Source of the DNA: Mesorhizobium sp. CAU 1732
GTDB lineage: Bacteria; Pseudomonadota; Alphaproteobacteria; Rhizobiales; Rhizobiaceae
Assembly: GCF_039888675.1 (NCBI RefSeq)
Contig: NZ_JBDQQR010000001.1
Location: 3,038,001-3,102,000 of the forward strand
DNA length: 64,000 bases
Direction of reading: 5' to 3'
Below are positions 43,969 through 56,482 of this stretch, one piece after another. The position numbers and the translations under genes are program-made. Below the pieces are notes generated by a model that saw only the letters and a program-made list of their open reading frames with translations, was not told where the DNA came from and did no database searches. How positions within the stretch are numbered: position 1 is the stretch's first letter; every line of letters begins with the position of its first letter.

Positions 43969-43993
43969 GGAATAATCCTTCACGGCCTCCGTT
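43969..43993 (+). promoter_or_regulatory. Candidate sigma-EcfG-type promoter before the Gly-rich gene
   Basis: GGAAT (43969-43973), a 16-bp spacer and CGTT (43990-43993) resemble the alphaproteobacterial general-stress promoter (GGAAC-N16/17-CGTT) with one mismatch. It lies about 95 bp before the Gly-rich gene ATG. Short motifs like this occur by chance, so the call is tentative. Confidence 0.3.
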
Positions 43994-44088: not shown

Positions 44089-44508
44089 ATGACAAACACG
44101 ATCAAAGACATGAACGCGTCCGTGGATGCCACCACTGCCGACGGTGACGTCTCGAAGGACCGTCGCCGCCTGCTCGGCATGCTCGGTCTCGCGGCAACTG
44201 CCGCCTACATCACTCCCACGCTGCTCTCAATGGACAAGGCGCACGCGTCCGGCGGTTCGGGCGGCGGGTCTGCCGGTGGCGGCGGTGGAAGCGGCGGCGG
44301 TGGCCGTGGCGGCTCCGGCGGCGGTGGTCGCGGTGGATCGGGCGGCGGTGGTCGCGGTTCGGGCGGAGGCGGCTTCGGCGGTCGTGGCTCGGGAGGTCGC
44401 AGCTTCGGCGGGCGTGGTTCGGGTGGCCGGAACTTCGGCGGTCGCGGATCGAGCGGTCGCGGCCCGGTCAACGCCCTCAACAACGCTTTCGGTCGCATCT
44501 TCCGCTAG
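44089..44508 (+). CDS. Exported Gly/Ser/Arg repeat protein, candidate modified-peptide precursor
   Basis: 139 residues. The leader (1-53) has a polar N-region, RRRLLGMLGLAATAAY (25-40, Tat-like) and an AHA cleavage site at 51-53. The mature part (54-139) is almost entirely Gly, Ser, Arg and Phe: GGGGRGGS-type units, then three copies of FGGRGSGGRx, then the tail NALNNAFGRIFR. GGAGAAG precedes the ATG. The neighbouring gene encodes a kinase-like protein fused to PqqD, the RiPP leader-binding fold, so Ser residues of the repeats may be modified. That role is inference; it may instead be a structural cell-surface protein. Confidence 0.8.
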   Translation: MTNTIKDMNASVDATTADGDVSKDRRRLLGMLGLAATAAYITPTLLSMDKAHASGGSGGGSAGGGGGSGGGGRGGSGGGGRGGSGGGGRGSGGGGFGGRGSGGRSFGGRGSGGRNFGGRGSSGRGPVNALNNAFGRIFR

Positions 44509-44519
44509 GCAAATCGAAC

Positions 44520-44554
44520 CCCATCGGGGCGGCACTATCCGCCGCCCCGATGGG
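44520..44554 (+). terminator. Strong intercistronic hairpin between the Gly-rich gene and the kinase/PqqD gene
   Basis: A perfect 14-bp GC-rich stem, CCCATCGGGGCGGC (44520-44533) and GCCGCCCCGATGGG (44541-44554), encloses a 7-nt loop and is followed by TTT. It starts 12 nt after the first gene's stop and ends 27 nt before the second gene's ATG. It should act as a partial terminator or attenuator, giving more Gly-rich product than kinase/PqqD product, as is usual for RiPP precursors. Confidence 0.75.
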
Positions 44555-44581
44555 TTTCGCGTATCAGAGGAGGCAACGCCG

Positions 44582-45790
44582 ATGCTGCTTCAACTCCAGG
44601 GGCTCCCCGCCCGGATCGAATTCTGCCCGGACTCGAGCGTCGTGGCCGACGGTGTGAGCGCAGTCCTGACCGGCTGGCCAATGTCGAAGCAGGCTTCAAA
44701 CGACAGCGAGCCGGCCTTCATGCGGATCTTTCGCGACGGCTCGGACACGATCGTCCGCAGGACCGATTGCGCGTGGGAAACCCGCGAACCGAGCCATGTG
44801 AGCGCCGTATGCTCGGCGATCGTCGAGATCGTCGAGGCCTACGTCACGCAATCCGACCGGCTGGGGGCTTTGCACGCAGGCGCCGTGGCGTTCGATGGCC
44901 GGCTGGTGCTGTTCCCGGCATCCACGCGGGCGGGCAAGAGCACATTGATGACACGGCTTGCTGCCGGCGGGCATAAGGTGTTTTCCGACGATCTTCTGCC
45001 CATCGAACTTTCGACCGGAATGGGCATCTCGACGGGCTGCCTGCCGCGCCCGCGCCTGCCGCTTCCGGCCAACGCCACGCCGGAATTTTCATCCTTCGTG
45101 CAGGATCATCTGCACCTGACGGACGGCTACTTCGGCTATGTCGATCCGGGGCCAGCGTCTCGCGCGACATTTGGCGAAGGCCTGCCCGCTGGTGCAGTCG
45201 TGTTGCTGTCTCGATCCGAGACGCCGTGCGATGCACGCATGGAAGCGGCCACGCCTGAACAGGCCCTCTGGGCGCTCGTTTCGCAGGAAACCCGCAGGGC
45301 TTTGCCGGCGGAATCCGTCCTCGATTCCTATCTCCACCTTGTCGGCGGCCTGAAATGCCTGCGGCTGCACTATTACGATCTCGAGGGCGCGGTGCGATGC
45401 CTCGAAGGAGCCTTCGCCAACTGGGATCTGGAAGATGGCTCAACGGCCAAGCCTGTCGACGCCATGCCTGCGGGCGACGAACTGGTCATCACGTGCAACG
45501 GCATCGGACCCATCTACCGCCACGCGCCGCAGACCATCCTGCGCACGGCCGGCACTGACGGCTTCCTCATCCGGCGCGAAACGAACGAAACGCACAATCT
45601 CAATCAGATGGGGTTGGCGATCTGGCGGGTTCTGGAGCAGCCGGTCGCGGTGCCGACGATCGTCGACCTGTTCGCGGAAGCGTTTCCCGATGTCGATGCG
45701 ACGATCATCGCCGCCGACATCGACGCCACGTTGAGCCGCATGCTGGAACTGGGCCTGCTCGTGGAGGACCTGAAGCAGCCCGCCTGTTAG
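44582..45790 (+). CDS. HPr-kinase-like / PqqD (RRE) fusion protein
   Basis: 402 residues. The N-terminal half has the HprK-related kinase pattern: LGALHAGAVAFDGRLVLFPA, a P-loop TRAGKSTL (K119), and HKVFSDDLLPIEL with the acidic pair at 136-137. The C-terminal 75 residues fit PqqD: NETHNLNQMGLAIWRVLEQP then a helix-rich end LSRMLELGLL. PqqD folds bind RiPP leader peptides, and HprK-like kinases phosphorylate lasso-peptide precursors. Kinase and leader-binding parts joined in one chain next to a Gly-rich exported protein suggest a dedicated modifying enzyme. GGAGG precedes ATG 44582. Activity is unproven, and the P-loop departs from the usual G-x4-GKS. Confidence 0.85.
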   Translation: MLLQLQGLPARIEFCPDSSVVADGVSAVLTGWPMSKQASNDSEPAFMRIFRDGSDTIVRRTDCAWETREPSHVSAVCSAIVEIVEAYVTQSDRLGALHAGAVAFDGRLVLFPASTRAGKSTLMTRLAAGGHKVFSDDLLPIELSTGMGISTGCLPRPRLPLPANATPEFSSFVQDHLHLTDGYFGYVDPGPASRATFGEGLPAGAVVLLSRSETPCDARMEAATPEQALWALVSQETRRALPAESVLDSYLHLVGGLKCLRLHYYDLEGAVRCLEGAFANWDLEDGSTAKPVDAMPAGDELVITCNGIGPIYRHAPQTILRTAGTDGFLIRRETNETHNLNQMGLAIWRVLEQPVAVPTIVDLFAEAFPDVDATIIAADIDATLSRMLELGLLVEDLKQPAC

Positions 45791-50163: not shown

Positions 50164-51654
50164 TCAGGGCTGGACTGTCTCCGTCACGGACGGAGCGATC
50201 GGCGCTTTGGCGGAGGGAGCGTCATCGCCCGCACAGAAGTCGCTGGCGTCGAGCAGCCCCCAGCCGAATACCGGATCGCGGCCTTCGTCGCCCAGATCCT
50301 GCGCGCTCTCCGACAGGCGCGCCTTGACCTGGGCGGTCGTCAGCGTGGGTTCGGACCCCTTGAGAAGCGCGACCGCCGCCGTCACGAACGGAGCGGCAAA
50401 CGATGTGCCGGTCTTTGGCCGTCCGCCGCTGACCGAGGCTGCGGTCCAGACATCGACGCCGGGTGCGGCGATGTCGACCTGTCCTCCGCGACCCGCGCGG
50501 CGATAAACCCGCTTGCCGCGATCCACGGCGGTAACGCCGATAACGCCGGGATAGGCCGCCGGAAACGCAGGGTTAGCGTTCGGTCCGTCATTGCCGACGG
50601 CTGCAACGACTACGGCACGGTCGGACGCGACAGTCACCGCACGCTTGAGCAGGTCGTTTGCAGGCCCGGCCAGGCTCAGATTGACGACCGACACCTCACG
50701 GGCGAGTGCCGCGTCGAGCGCGCGGACCAGCGTATAGGCATCCGACCGATCGTCATCACCACGCGCGCGATGGAACGCGTCGATGGCCACCAGTTCGGCA
50801 TTCGGCAGGAGGCCGGGCGTCCGACTGTCCGCGGAGCCGGCCAGAAGGGCGGCGACTGCGGTTCCATGCTGGTGCCCCGACGCCTCCAGATCGTCATCTC
50901 CGATGCGGACGAGGTCGATGCTACGACCCTCGAACACCGCGTGATCGGGGTTGATGCCGGTATCCACGAGCGCGATGCGTACGCCTTTGCCACAGGCACG
51001 CTCGCCAGCAGACAATGGCCAGCCGACGAGTTGAGGTGCCGCGCAGTGCGGCCCGCTGCAATTTTCCGCCTCGCCCGCCTCCGGTCGGTAGAAATGGTTG
51101 AAGTCGACGTCGGCACCGACAGCCAGTGAGCGAACCTGCTCACGCGCGTCATCGAGGGACGTTCCCTCCGGCACAAGCAGCTTCATCACGGTGGTGCCAA
51201 GCAACGGCACATCCGTTTCCGCGACGACCGAATAGCCTATCGCGACCAGTTCGACCCGCTGCGGCGCACTCACGCCGGCTGCGATAATCTCGCGATCGAC
51301 GCGAACCGGGAACGCGGCAGGCGCTGCGCGGGTTGCAGACCTGCGTGGGGCAGAACGACCCGTGATCGCACGCCGGATGCCGCGAAAGATGCCGCGAGGA
51401 GATACATTGCCGAGATTACCAGTGCCGCGATGGATGCCGGTGGGGCTGTTGCCGGCCCCGCCACCGCCACCATAGCCGCCACCGCCGCCATCATCACCGT
51501 CGTCGTCCGCATAGGCTGGCGCCAGACCCAGCGCGAGGAACGAGTCCCGTCCGGCATCGATCGGGGCCAGAAGCATCGCACCGGTCATCACGCATACGAA
51601 AGCGACTCGCAAAATGCAAGTCAAGCCATTGTTTACATTGGTTTTTCTTGACAT
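50164..51654 (-). CDS. Secreted subtilisin-like serine protease (S8)
   Basis: 496 residues from ATG 51654; several in-frame ATGs lie upstream to 51702. A long signal region ends near APAYADDDGDDGG and a Gly-rich linker follows. The catalytic triad is visible: Asp in IALVDTGINPDHA, His in SGHQHGTAVAALLAG, Ser in KTGTSFAAPFVTAAVALL. The region between the linker and the triad (RVDREIIAAGVSAPQRVELV) may be a prodomain. It is divergent from an ECF sigma/anti-sigma pair, so it may be in that regulon or act on the anti-sigma factor. Confidence 0.9.
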   Translation of the reverse strand: MSRKTNVNNGLTCILRVAFVCVMTGAMLLAPIDAGRDSFLALGLAPAYADDDGDDGGGGGYGGGGGAGNSPTGIHRGTGNLGNVSPRGIFRGIRRAITGRSAPRRSATRAAPAAFPVRVDREIIAAGVSAPQRVELVAIGYSVVAETDVPLLGTTVMKLLVPEGTSLDDAREQVRSLAVGADVDFNHFYRPEAGEAENCSGPHCAAPQLVGWPLSAGERACGKGVRIALVDTGINPDHAVFEGRSIDLVRIGDDDLEASGHQHGTAVAALLAGSADSRTPGLLPNAELVAIDAFHRARGDDDRSDAYTLVRALDAALAREVSVVNLSLAGPANDLLKRAVTVASDRAVVVAAVGNDGPNANPAFPAAYPGVIGVTAVDRGKRVYRRAGRGGQVDIAAPGVDVWTAASVSGGRPKTGTSFAAPFVTAAVALLKGSEPTLTTAQVKARLSESAQDLGDEGRDPVFGWGLLDASDFCAGDDAPSAKAPIAPSVTETVQP

Positions 51655-51785
51655 TCCCGTCTTGACTCCCGTGTCGTGCCTCATCATCATGACGACCGAC
51701 AAGATCGTTCAGCCTTGCATGTGAAACGGCTGGACGTCGCCAATATTCCACGTCGCGACAGATATTCGCAACAAACCGGCCGAGC

Positions 51786-52328
51786 ATGACCTCGAATGCA
51801 GAAGACATAGGCGCGCAACTGATCGCGATGCTGCCGACGCTGCGGCGCTTCGCGCTTTCGCTCACGCGCTCGGCCGACAAGGCGGACGATCTCGTCCAGT
51901 CGGCCTGCGAGCGCGCACTTGCGAACGCTGCGCGCTACGAGCCCGACACGCGTTTCGATGCCTGGATGTTCCGGATCATCCGCAATCTGTGGATCGATCG
52001 CGTGCGCCGCGAGAAGACGGCGGGACCGACCGACGATATCGACGACCGTCCCGACCTCGCCGGCATATCGGGGGTGCAGGTCGTCGAGGCCCGGTCGACG
52101 ATGCAGAGCGTCAGCGACGCGATCGATGCCTTGCCAGACGAGCAGCGCGAGGTCCTGCTGCTGACCTGTGTCGAGGATGTTTCATACAAGGACGCCGCCG
52201 AGGTGCTTGGCATTCCGATCGGCACGGTGATGAGCAGGCTGGCGCGCGCGCGCCGCAGACTTGCCGAGATCACGGGAATAAGCGGCGGGACCGCACGTTC
52301 CCCTGCCGACAAGGATGAGAGGCGATGA
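51786..52328 (+). CDS. ECF RNA polymerase sigma factor
   Basis: 180 residues. Region 2 is DDLVQSACERALANAARYEP and FDAWMFRIIRNLWIDRVRRE; region 4 is LPDEQREVLLLTCVEDVSYK and EVLGIPIGTVMSRLARARRR, the HTH. It overlaps the anti-sigma gene (ATGA), so the pair is coupled. No -35/-10 for its own promoter was firmly identified in the 131-bp divergent gap shared with the protease gene. Confidence 0.92.
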   Translation: MTSNAEDIGAQLIAMLPTLRRFALSLTRSADKADDLVQSACERALANAARYEPDTRFDAWMFRIIRNLWIDRVRREKTAGPTDDIDDRPDLAGISGVQVVEARSTMQSVSDAIDALPDEQREVLLLTCVEDVSYKDAAEVLGIPIGTVMSRLARARRRLAEITGISGGTARSPADKDERR

Positions 52329-53113
52329 CCGTGCAGACTTTCGACGACGAAACACTCATGGCTTACGCCGATGGCGAACTCGACGCGGCGACAGCCGCCG
52401 CCGTCGAACGCGCGTTGGAGACGGACGACGATATCGCCCTTCGCGTCGGAATGTTCATGGAAACGCGGCTTCAGGCCAGGGACGCGGTCGTATCGCGTAC
52501 CGATGACACCGTGCCTGCCGCGCTGCGCCAGAACATCGAGGCGATGATCGAGCGCGCCAAGGCCGAGGACGCTCTGGCCGAAAAGCGCGCGGGCGTGGCG
52601 CCGCTGCGGCGCGCGGCAAATGACGACAGCCCATGGTTCCGCTCGCGCTGGATCGCGCCGATCGCAGCCTCGCTCATTGCAGTGCTTGCCGGTGTCGGCG
52701 GATATACGCTCGGCACATCGCAGACGCCCGCTCCCGGCGCTCTCCAGGTCGCGGGCTTGTCGCTCACCGATCTCCCCCGGACGCTGGACACGGCTCCCTC
52801 TGGCGGAGACGTGTCGCTGGCTGGCGGTGAGGCACGGTTCCGTGGCATCGCAACCTTCGAGAATGGCGCAGGCGCGCTGTGCCGCGAGTTCGAGGTGGAC
52901 ACGCCGGGCGGCGCAGCGGTCGTCTCCGTCGCATGCCGGGATGGAGCGGATTGGCAGACCGCTTTCGTGGTCGTGTCGCGCACCAGCAATGACGGCTATG
53001 CGCCGGCCTCCTCGCTGGAGGCCCTCAACGCCTATCTGGAAACGGCTGGAGCGGGTGAGCCGATGTCGGCCGAAGCAGAAGCCGAAGCCCTGGCGGCAGC
53101 GCGATCGCGATAA
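52325..53113 (+). CDS. Transmembrane anti-sigma factor
   Basis: 262 residues. The N-terminal anti-sigma domain has MAYADGELDAATAAAVERAL, an RsiW-like helix without the HxxxCxxC zinc motif. A single membrane span lies near residues 108-128 (WIAPIAASLIAVLAGVGGYT), and the C-terminal part is periplasmic. Sequestration of the ECF sigma until a signal acts on the periplasmic domain is the standard model. The periplasmic domain has two Cys (ALCREF, VACRDG) that could form a disulfide. Confidence 0.88.
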   Translation: MTVQTFDDETLMAYADGELDAATAAAVERALETDDDIALRVGMFMETRLQARDAVVSRTDDTVPAALRQNIEAMIERAKAEDALAEKRAGVAPLRRAANDDSPWFRSRWIAPIAASLIAVLAGVGGYTLGTSQTPAPGALQVAGLSLTDLPRTLDTAPSGGDVSLAGGEARFRGIATFENGAGALCREFEVDTPGGAAVVSVACRDGADWQTAFVVVSRTSNDGYAPASSLEALNAYLETAGAGEPMSAEAEAEALAAARSR

Positions 53114-53693: not shown

Positions 53694-54485
53694 TCAGAGC
53701 GTCGCCGATTGCGGCAGGACGAACGGCATGTCGCCCGCGGGCAGCACGCCGACCTTGAGCCGGCAGTCGAAAACCCTGTGAATCAGATCGTCCGTCAGGA
53801 CGGCGCGCGGCGAACCCGACGCCGCCACCCTGCCCCGGCACATCACGGTCACCTCGTCGGCGAACATCGCGGTGAGGTTCAGATCATGCAGGATCGCGAC
53901 CACGCCGCCGCCGCGAGACGCGAACTCGCGGGCGATCTTCATGATGATCAACTGGTGCTTGATGTCGAGCGACGACACCGGCTCGTCCAGAAACAGCCAG
54001 CGCGGCTCGCCATCGAGAACCGGCGCCCAGACCTGGCACAGGACCCGTGCAAGCTGGACGCGCTGCTGCTCGCCGCCTGAAAGCTCCTGATAAAATCGCC
54101 CCGAGAAACCATCGAGATCGACCTTCGCCAGGGCACGGTCGGGAAGACGCTCGGCCTCGCCTGCAAGCGCGCCCGTGCGGCCATTGACGATCCCCAGCCG
54201 GACGATCTCGCGCACGGTGAACGGAAACGACAGCGTGGTCGCCTGCGGCAGCACCGCACGCAGGCCAGCGGCCTGCCAGGGCTTCATGTCGCGCAGGTCG
54301 CGGCCGTTCAGCCTGATCGTGCCGGACGCGGGCAGATCGCCCGACAACGCCTTCAGGAAGGTCGTCTTGCCCGATCCGTTCGGCCCGACGATGGCCGTCA
54401 CAGTTCCCGCCCGCGCTTCGAACGAGACATCGTGCAGAATGCGCGTGGTGCCGATCATCACGGAAACGTCGTGTGCGTCGATCAT
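53694..54485 (-). CDS. hmuV: Hemin ABC importer ATP-binding protein
   Basis: 263 residues. Walker A is GPNGSGKTTFLKALSG, the Q-loop region LRAVLPQATTLSFPFTVREI is diagnostic of HmuV, the signature is LSGGEQQRVQLARVL, and Walker B is LFLDEPVSSLDIKHQ. It powers HmuU. Last gene of hmuPSTUV. Confidence 0.94.
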   Translation of the reverse strand: MIDAHDVSVMIGTTRILHDVSFEARAGTVTAIVGPNGSGKTTFLKALSGDLPASGTIRLNGRDLRDMKPWQAAGLRAVLPQATTLSFPFTVREIVRLGIVNGRTGALAGEAERLPDRALAKVDLDGFSGRFYQELSGGEQQRVQLARVLCQVWAPVLDGEPRWLFLDEPVSSLDIKHQLIIMKIAREFASRGGGVVAILHDLNLTAMFADEVTVMCRGRVAASGSPRAVLTDDLIHRVFDCRLKVGVLPAGDMPFVLPQSATL

Positions 54486-54495
54486 GGCAGGGTCC

Positions 54496-55593
54496 TCACA
54501 GGTCCAGGACGCCGCGCTTGCGCAGCAATATCCACAGGAAGAAGGGTGCGCCGACGGCGGCGGTCACGATGCCGATCGGCAGTTCCGCAGGCGCGACGAT
54601 CGTGCGGCTGACGGCGTCGGCGAGCAGCAGAAGCGACGCGCCGAGCAGCGCCGACGCCGGCAGGAGATAGCGGTGATCGGGCCCGATCAGCAGCCGCAGC
54701 AGATGCGGCACGACGATGCCGACGAAGCCGATGCCGCCCGAAACGGCGACCGACGCGCCGGTGGCCGCCGCGACGACCACGATCGCGATGTTCTTGAAGC
54801 GCTGCACCGGAATGCCGAGATGGTGCGCGGTCGCCTCTCCGAGCGCCATCGCGTTGAGCGAGCGCGCCATGAACGGTGCCGCGAGCAGCGCCAGGGCGAT
54901 GATCGGCCCCGCGGACAGGATTTTGGTCCACGTCGCGCCGGCCAGCGATCCCAGACCCCAGAAGGTCAGGTCGCGGAGCTGCCGGTCGTCCGCAAGGTAG
55001 ATCAAAACGCCCGAAAACGCGCCCGCCATCGCACCGAGCGCGATGCCTGCAAGCAGCATGGTGGCGATCGACGTCTGCCCGCGCCGCGTGGCGACGTGAT
55101 ACAGCAGCAGCGTCGTCGCGAGGCCGCCGGCGAAGGCGGCAAGCGGCAGCGCGTAGATGCCGAACAGCGCGATGACCGGACCCAGAATGCCACCCCCAAG
55201 CACGATGATGCTGATGGCGCCCAGGCCTGCACCGGCCGACACGCCGACCAGGCCGGGATCGGCCAGCGGATTGCGGAACAACCCCTGCATCACCGCGCCG
55301 GACACCGCAAGCGCTGCCCCGATCAGTACGCCGAGGATCATGCGCGGCAATCTTATGTCGTAGACGATGATGCGGTCGCGGGCGCTGAGCGCGCCATCCT
55401 CCGCCCCGCCGAGCCAGCCGAGCACCACATCCACTGCCGACGCATCGGAGGCACCCGCCGTAAGGCTGAACAACGCGACGACGACCAGGACCACAGCAAG
55501 GATAACGATCGTCGCGCGTGCACGCGCCGAGCGGTCACCCGCCACGACCGGCGCGGAAAAGAAGCCGCCAGCCGCCCTCTGCAACATTTCCAT
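54496..55593 (-). CDS. hmuU: Hemin ABC importer permease
   Basis: 365 residues from ATG 55593 (MEMLQRAAGGFF); other in-frame starts at 55620 and 55587 exist and no strong ribosome site decides. FecCD-type permease with about ten membrane segments. PRMILGVLIGAALAVSGAVM, FRNPLADPGLVGVSAGAGLG and GGIGFVGIVVPHLLRLLIGP are the family's most conserved blocks. It forms the inner-membrane channel for heme with HmuV and HmuT. Confidence 0.92.
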   Translation of the reverse strand: MEMLQRAAGGFFSAPVVAGDRSARARATIVILAVVLVVVALFSLTAGASDASAVDVVLGWLGGAEDGALSARDRIIVYDIRLPRMILGVLIGAALAVSGAVMQGLFRNPLADPGLVGVSAGAGLGAISIIVLGGGILGPVIALFGIYALPLAAFAGGLATTLLLYHVATRRGQTSIATMLLAGIALGAMAGAFSGVLIYLADDRQLRDLTFWGLGSLAGATWTKILSAGPIIALALLAAPFMARSLNAMALGEATAHHLGIPVQRFKNIAIVVVAAATGASVAVSGGIGFVGIVVPHLLRLLIGPDHRYLLPASALLGASLLLLADAVSRTIVAPAELPIGIVTAAVGAPFFLWILLRKRGVLDL

Positions 55594-55597
55594 GAGA

Positions 55598-56482
55598 TCA
55601 GTCCGCAGCCGCTTTGCCATAAAGCGCGGCGGCCAGATCGCGCGCGGCAGCCGCCGTGCGCGGTCCGAAGCCGAGCAGGAACGCACCATCCATACGCACC
55701 ACCTTGGCATCGCGCCCGGCAGGCGTCGCCGCTAGCGCCGGATGGGTCACGAGCTCGTCGAGTTGCGTGGCGTGGTCGCCGCCCCGATCCATCGCCAGGA
55801 TGACGTCGGGCGCAGCCTCGATGACGGCTTCGTCGGTCAGTTGCTTGTAGCCGGAATAGTCGGTGACGGCATTCTCGCCGCCCGCCATGCCGATGATCGC
55901 ATTTGCCGCTGTGTCCGTGCCGGAGGCAAGGATTCGCCCACCCTGCAACGACAAGACGAACAGCACCTTCTTCTTTTCCTCGACCGAGGCGGCGGCGGTT
56001 TCGGCGGATGCCAGATCGGCATCGATCTGGCTGGCGACGGCAGCGGACTTATCCTCCACGCCAAGAACCTCGCCGATAATGCGCACCTTATCGACGATGC
56101 CCTCACGATCGAATTTCTCGGGAACCGTCACGAGCGGTATGCTGGCCTTCTGCAACACCTCCAGCGCTTCAGGCGGGCCGCTGCCTTCGAGCGCGAGAAT
56201 GAGGCTTGGATTGACCGACAGAACGCCCTCGGGCGAGAGCTGGCGAATGTAGCCGACATCGGGGAGAGCAAGTGCGGCCTCGGGGAAGACGCTCGTGGAA
56301 TCGCGGGCGATGAGGCGTGCTTCCTCGCCCAATGCGTAGACGATCTCGGTCACCGAGCCACCGATCGCGACGATGCGGGACGTGTCCACTTCCTGCGCGG
56401 CGGCAGACATGGTGAGCAGGCCCACGATCGCCCCGGACGCAAGGCAGCGCGCCAGCGATGGCGCGAGATATTTCAAACGCAT
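55598..56482 (-). CDS. hmuT: Periplasmic hemin-binding protein
   Basis: 294 residues from ATG 56482, which has GAGGAG upstream. A signal peptide ends MSAAAQ near residue 23; RIVAIGGSVTEIVYALGEEA opens the type III binding fold. DVGYIRQLSPEGVLSVNPSL carries the conserved Tyr that coordinates heme in HmuT/ShuT. It passes heme from the outer-membrane receptor to HmuUV. The gene lies 11 nt downstream of hmuS. Confidence 0.93.
   Translation of the reverse strand: MRLKYLAPSLARCLASGAIVGLLTMSAAAQEVDTSRIVAIGGSVTEIVYALGEEARLIARDSTSVFPEAALALPDVGYIRQLSPEGVLSVNPSLILALEGSGPPEALEVLQKASIPLVTVPEKFDREGIVDKVRIIGEVLGVEDKSAAVASQIDADLASAETAAASVEEKKKVLFVLSLQGGRILASGTDTAANAIIGMAGGENAVTDYSGYKQLTDEAVIEAAPDVILAMDRGGDHATQLDELVTHPALAATPAGRDAKVVRMDGAFLLGFGPRTAAAARDLAAALYGKAAAD

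Follow-up and report, generated by a model that had tools for sequence, protein, structure and literature searches.

In the window, i.e., the whole stretch of 64,000 nucleotides from Mesorhizobium sp. CAU 1732 that was analyzed, the gene for an exported repeat protein is followed by a gene for a kinase with a fused PqqD/RRE domain, and the system is a proteobacterial variant of the LPP-like kinase-RRE systems. It is proposed that the PqqD/RRE domain binds the precursor at a YxxPxL motif that is part of the twin-arginine-type signal peptide, as suggested by the fold of the domain and by the motif, and that binding puts the adjoining core at the HprK/PEPCK-type kinase domain. The kinase would use ATP to phosphorylate serines or threonines of the core in the cytoplasm, in line with its catalytic residues and with the precedents of LPP and BsfK. 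The finished protein would be exported by the Tat system, which is suited to proteins completed in the cytoplasm, and signal peptidase would cut after AxA. An ECF sigma/anti-sigma pair would switch on the precursor and kinase genes, an S8 protease gene and the anti-sigma gene together. The S8 protease would act outside the cell, where its target would be the product or the envelope; in several relatives it carries the leader of the precursors and, behind it, a short low-complexity tract. We regard this leader-guided peptide kinase model as fairly probable as a whole, i.e., including Tat export, the ECF regulon and the role of the S8 protease.

The precursor, its leader and the fused kinase

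The two open reading frames of the original prediction, 44089..44508 and 44582..45790 on the forward strand, were recovered exactly. The first encodes an exported repeat protein of 139 amino acids, with a leader of 53 residues and a mature part of 86 residues that contains 47 Gly, 12 Ser and 11 Arg. The leader has three arginines at residues 25-27 and a cleavage-type site AHA. Its residues 40-45, YITPTL (44206..44223, forward strand), place a YxxPxL motif within the signal peptide. The literature used for comparison (PMC10368454, PMC13381572, PMC8498205, PMC12710340) was available in part, and the statements on published systems refer to these parts. YxxPxL is known there from the leaders of lasso peptides and of LPP, the linear polyphosphorylated peptides of Bacillota (PMC10368454, PMC13381572, the latter from 2026). 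The motif was read off the leaders first and compared with lasso leaders afterwards. Some leader patterns required Tyr (one of them Tyr/Phe plus Pro), and one alignment was anchored on Tyr and Pro, so that invariance is built in there.

A leader profile (A3) built from 31 leaders has a single strong match in the genome of the window, namely the precursor (E 1.1e-15), and the next best has an E-value of 0.007. Of 34 weak matches (E 1e-5 to 0.01), which serve as a control for YxxPxL, 21 end at or before model column 23, i.e., they cover the RR half only. In another control, too small to carry weight, three of nine other RR signals turned out to be further leader genes, and YxxPxL was present in none of the remaining six. 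An RR pair is found in most related leaders, often preceded by S, T, G, D or N. The signal of the window precursor reads K-D-R-R-R, not S-R-R, and the precursor of an Oxalobacter locus (L006) lacks the RR pair and retains the YxxPxL part. This single case points to a role other than Tat export for the second half of the leader. The Tat route is therefore uncertain; TatC is encoded in the genome (E 4.4e-70).

The second gene encodes a protein of 402 residues, the C-terminal RRE domain of which spans residues 310-398 (45509..45775, forward strand). An AlphaFold2 model (pLDDT 92) consists of a PEPCK/HprK-type kinase and a PqqD/RRE domain, and the best structural match of the latter is the lasso RRE TbiB1, which was solved together with its leader. 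The structural relatives of the RRE domain are thus consistent with the YxxPxL motif in the signal of the neighbor. The PqqD/RRE half passes the gathering score of PF05402, and thus the C-terminal assignment of the original prediction holds at the level of both profile and predicted fold. The protein is below the cut-offs of TIGR04352 (HprK-rel-A; 41.2 versus 200 bits) and TIGR04353 (PqqD_rel_X; 14.7 versus 35 bits), and it is not listed at E-values up to 1 for PF07475 and TIGR00679, which represent HPr kinase/phosphorylase proper.

The residues H98, K119, S120, D136 and D137 are invariant in all 46 homologues of alignment A1, which omits four truncated sequences (P0028, P0046, P0048, P0049) out of 49 homologues. 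According to the available text on the lasso-precursor kinase BsfK, H148, G163, K169, S170, D186 and D187 matter for its activity, while G166 does not (PMC10368454). The five residues shared with the window kinase are equally spaced in both proteins (21 positions from His to Lys, 16 and 17 from Ser to the two Asp). The P-loop of the window kinase, FPASTRAGKS, has Ala113 at the position of G163 and Arg116 at that of G166. Because five of the six BsfK residues are kept at the same spacing and G163 is replaced by Ala, kinase competence is likely, but not certain. The HprK-like N-terminal half of the original prediction is supported by the predicted fold and the invariant residues; one glycine of the P-loop is not kept.

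The fusion protein might also be an ATP-driven export chaperone, which holds the precursor by its signal up to the moment of export and introduces no covalent change. Tat substrates often have dedicated chaperones, the RRE domain would bind inside the signal peptide itself, and the P-loop glycine that is needed in BsfK is absent here. We nevertheless find a chaperone quite improbable, because the five residues mentioned above are kept in every aligned homologue and the closest studied pairs are kinases, as far as the available parts of the two reports go (PMC10368454, PMC13381572). Recognition of the leader by the kinase fusion, as originally predicted, is well supported computationally by the RRE fold, the YxxPxL motif, gene linkage and co-occurrence. 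In BsfK, the exchanges Y(-17)A and L(-12)A left phosphorylation unaffected (PMC10368454, available part), and the motif may therefore matter more for other steps.

The gap between the precursor and kinase genes comprises 73 bases and contains a stem-loop (44515..44559, forward strand; -41.9 kcal/mol, z -4.5), which is possibly an attenuator. An inverted repeat is present within 150 bases downstream of just 16 of 55 leader genes, an uncontrolled count in relatives, and the stem-loop was rejected as a general trait of the system.

Linkage of kinase and leader genes in other genomes

Seventy-two records, which include some duplicates, yielded 42 distinct recognized kinase loci, and two of these had too little upstream sequence. 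At all 40 assessable loci, i.e., those with at least 500 bases upstream, an upstream gene encodes an RR signal with YxxPx[LMIV], and the search itself required the RR pair and a hydrophobic stretch and nothing of YxxPxL. The loci are not independent, and L005/L032, L015/L024 and L052/L053 are close kin. The kinase pattern missed five further loci (L003, L006, L009, L034, L050), all of which have an adjoining leader gene, and L038-L042, which are weak matches without an adjacent leader gene. It also missed all of L060-L074, where a leader gene adjoins in L060 and L067-L069 and none was found in the sequence examined for the rest.

Co-occurrence was analyzed in 385 genomes of the window's class. 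Among the candidates scored, the kinase is present in 35 genomes, the leader in 35, and both in 33 (Fisher p 6e-43). When the 12 genomes that had contributed to profile A3 are left out, both are present in 21 genomes, compared to 23 with the kinase and 23 with the leader (p 6e-30). The thresholds (kinase E <1e-25, leader E <1e-7) were chosen with the result lists already known. Up to four candidates per genome were scored in one pass and 19 in another, so that members may be missed; the genome tallies of both passes agree. As evidence against the pairing, kinase-like matches without a leader occur in G336, G254 and G462, of which the kinase of G254 is just outside the threshold (3e-22) and the match in G462 is a PqqD fragment. 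Conversely, a leader without a close kinase occurs in G526 and G264. In G526 a fragment of 64 kinase residues lies 8 kb from the leader gene (G526:C3:202070-202261) and is perhaps a decaying kinase copy.

Gly-rich genes of low complexity are frequent in general, which is what might be expected if the gene pair were an accident of position. The presence of a leader gene at every assessable locus and both co-occurrence values make chance extremely improbable. The leader gene can even be remote from the kinase gene. It is located away from it in 16 genomes of the class, and 14 of these still encode the kinase among the candidates scored, with a distance of 25-119 kb on the same contig in eight and a location on another contig in six. 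Profile A3 thus picks out likely substrates even away from the enzyme gene, and uncharacterized HprK-like/PqqD proteins can be assigned a specific candidate substrate for tests. In the family of the window, the kinase is encoded in nine of 151 genomes (E <1e-28), so that its distribution is patchy, and all nine also have a leader gene, in G070 as a piece at a contig edge.

The hosts found are mostly Alphaproteobacteria, and also Oxalobacter and Desulfovibrio. Five loci (L009, L022, L051, L056, L057) contain two leader genes with diverged cores. A second form of the system has kinase and PqqD as separate genes (L149-L160; the respective clusters are present in 10 and 8 of 12 regions). At L149 the split genes adjoin type I secretion genes, with an HlyD-family match above and an LssB/HlyB-like match below the cut-off, and several split-form regions lie near genes that look RegB/RegA-like by sequence. 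The leader genes of the split form are the remote ones, 25-119 kb away in eight genomes and on another contig in six. Among their regions L134-L148, most of which encode short Cys-containing cores, a gene that was judged from its sequence to be HldE-like is near in 9 of 15.

Variable cores and relation to known peptide kinases

The conserved trait behind this linkage is the leader, not glycine. Cores of the GGRGS type are encoded in the window and at L002-L005, L012 and L034, PSRP/PTRP repeat cores at L011, L021, L022 and L025, and SR-type cores at L006, L015, L020 and L024. Leader genes away from the kinase gene mostly encode short Cys-containing cores, many of which start PSPC-like (P[ST][PN]C). 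Gly-richness was dropped as a defining trait, since Ser/Arg or Ser/Arg/Pro cores are present at L006, L010, L011, L015, L018, L020-L022, L024, L025 and L027. The Gly-rich partner of the original prediction was therefore too narrow, as the same leader precedes Ser/Arg or Ser/Arg/Pro cores in Rhodobacterales, Oxalobacter and Desulfovibrio. Kinase genes conserved without a Gly-rich neighbor, which had been named beforehand as evidence against the prediction, were indeed found: they have Ser/Arg(/Pro) neighbors or, in the 14 genomes of the class mentioned above, a leader gene elsewhere.

In a set of 52 precursors, which leaves out further precursors from genomes with a leader gene away from the kinase, Ser/Thr is the commonest of the residues counted. 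It makes up at least 10% of the mature part in 50 precursors, compared to 34 for Gly, 34 for Arg and 21 for Pro, and Ser alone reaches this level in 47. The most frequent contexts are P[ST]R and G[ST]G. That Ser/Thr is the most constant core residue is expected if it is the target of the enzyme; composition by itself is no proof.

The kinases of LPP and BsfK modify one serine, in contrast to the repeats found here, and this speaks against the model. Phosphorylation might be restricted to a single Ser/Thr adjacent to the cleavage site, with the repeats serving as a scaffold or spacer that stays unmodified. For BsfK and LppK, Ser3 is the sole target (PMC10368454, PMC13381572, available parts), a Ser/Thr is located at most six residues from the predicted cleavage site, as assigned by a simple AxA rule, in 42 of the 52 precursors, and many short Cys-type cores begin P[ST][PN]C-like. 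We still consider phosphorylation at a single site unlikely, because the 47 precursors with at least 10% Ser have very different cores, as if serine were needed throughout.

LPP are the closest comparison. In the available part of PMC13381572, an HprK kinase, an RRE and a YxxPxVL leader are described, together with a linear core that is phosphorylated at Ser3. The HprK-like kinase, the lasso-type RRE, the YxxPx(L/V) leader and the linear core are common to both systems, as would be the cleavage of the leader by a signal-peptidase-type enzyme, which is a proposal in our case. In contrast to LPP, in which the RRE is discrete according to that part, kinase and RRE are fused here, the leader with the motif is a twin-arginine-type signal, the cores are repeats, an S8 protease gene has the promoter motif of the precursor gene, and the hosts are mostly Alphaproteobacteria instead of Bacillota. 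The LPP-type NTP transferase, MsbA-like exporter and SipW-like peptidase were searched for among ten neighbors in the window, and none was found; the ABC genes at 53694-55710 resemble an importer in our reading.

Phosphoserine might also be an intermediate that is further modified by another enzyme, as in pseudomycoidin, which has sugars on its phosphate, or that is removed again. An NTP transferase is indeed part of LPP and paeninodin-like clusters in the literature available to us. The lack of such an enzyme among the ten neighbors searched, and of a candidate, in our reading of the sequences, among the clusters found in at least four of 27 neighborhoods, leaves this route even less probable than an export chaperone.

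The lasso kinase/RRE pairs, e.g., BsfK-BsfB1, share the kinase fold, five of the six tested residues, the B1-type RRE and the YxxPxL leader with the window system, and phosphorylation by BsfK is boosted by the RRE (available part of PMC10368454). In contrast to lasso clusters, a long repeat protein destined for export provides the core, the B2 leader protease (PF13471) has no match in the window's genome, and no lasso cyclase was found among the ten neighbors. Further lasso peptide kinases are PadeK and ThcoK. HprK-rel-A (TIGR04352/TIGR04353) and the SynChlorMet proteins ScmC/ScmD (TIGR04249/TIGR04248) also combine an HprK-like kinase with a PqqD-like partner by their family descriptions, but the scores here are far under the cut-offs. 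HxsA (His-Xaa-Ser repeat) systems likewise comprise a leader, a low-complexity core and a dedicated modification enzyme; however, they use radical SAM enzymes instead of a kinase, and the one HxsA4 match in a relative is sub-threshold (15.5 versus 55 bits). A literature search largely confined to journals without subscription retrieved no paper on an "HprK-related kinase" and none on an HprK/PqqD fusion joined to exported repeat proteins. Leader-guided phosphorylation just before export would thus be widespread and, as it seems, undescribed.

If the model is true, exported repeat proteins join LPP and lasso peptides as targets of kinase-RRE modification, with Alphaproteobacteria, Oxalobacter and Desulfovibrio as hosts, and a signal peptide that doubles as a RiPP leader is suggested. 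As a guess, a phosphorylated Ser/Arg/Gly polyampholyte might bind cations or glue the envelope. More tentatively, and with some doubt, we envisage a widespread and so far undescribed class of exported phospho-repeat proteins, in which the enzyme motif would be built into the signal peptide, modification would be coupled to export, and one leader would serve hypervariable cores (GGRGS, PSRPTR, RS-like, Cys-type) and a protease. The products, which an ECF sigma factor would call up when needed, would correspond in bacteria to heavily phosphorylated Ser/Arg or silk-like matrix proteins.

The window precursor ends in a short amphipathic-looking tail (44467-44505, VNALNNAFGRIFR); others resemble LPPWMQRILGV, and comparable tails are present at L002, L003, L016, L017, L022, L023, L025 and L026. 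They are perhaps a membrane or surface anchor.

The S8 protease and a putative ECF regulon

The original prediction described a two-gene system without a protease nearby. A gene for an S8 subtilisin-like protease is present at 50164..51702 on the reverse strand (PF00082, E 1.6e-35), and both it and the likely anti-sigma gene have the promoter motif of the precursor and lie next to an ECF sigma gene, so that neither claim stands. The protease has a Gly-rich stretch after a signal that we read as Sec-like, unlike the leader of the precursor, and its residues D247, H279 and S434 are invariant across eight aligned sequences. The ECF sigma factor (51786..52328, forward strand; PF04542/PF08281) is followed by the likely anti-sigma factor (52325..53113, forward strand), which scores just under the cut-off of the PF13490 zinc-finger (21.7 versus 22.2 bits).

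The ECF-type promoter motif GGAATA-N15-CGTT is located before the precursor gene (43969..43993, forward strand), before the protease gene (51725..51749, reverse strand) and, within the end of the sigma gene, before the anti-sigma gene (52275..52299, forward strand). These are three matches compared to 0.05 expected in the window, and they represent three of only five in the whole 5.4-Mb genome, in which a reversed-pattern control matches twice. Because the motif is common to these three genes and rare genome-wide, a single ECF regulon of the precursor, kinase, S8 protease and anti-sigma genes is most likely, and the adjoining sigma factor would be the one that reads the motif. A looser pattern, GGAA[CT]-N16-17-CGTT, precedes 24 of 55 leader genes, namely those of 21 of 51 precursors and three of four leader-bearing S8 genes, compared to 0.21 expected from simple shuffles. 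It is absent from L046-L069, and the promoter motif was not retained as a general trait.

When the neighbors of the window and of 26 further loci were clustered, only two clusters besides the kinase occurred in at least six of the 27, namely the S8 protease (8) and the ECF sigma factor (6), with the window included. Among the 151 genomes of the family, the S8 protease is encoded in 15 (E <1e-130), and seven of these also belong to the nine with the kinase (Fisher 7e-7). The two are linked in G000, G032, G060 (twice) and G070, and unlinked in G024, G067 and G125. The other eight of the 15 have no kinase, and the S8 protease was discarded as an obligatory partner.

S8 proteases that carry the precursor-type leader are encoded at L013, L014, L016, L017 and L025, and one more is encoded in G060 (G060:C7). 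At L025, the leader of the protease is followed by an RPSRPS repeat as in the nearby precursor. When the tracts of six such proteases were compared with the cores of their own precursors, the observed value was reached in 2 of 720 permutations, including itself, which is a hint driven mainly by L025. A further copy of the promoter motif (G000:C1:1460079-1460103, L110) precedes a frame of 404 residues that encodes a lysozyme-type (GH25) domain and may also belong to the regulon.
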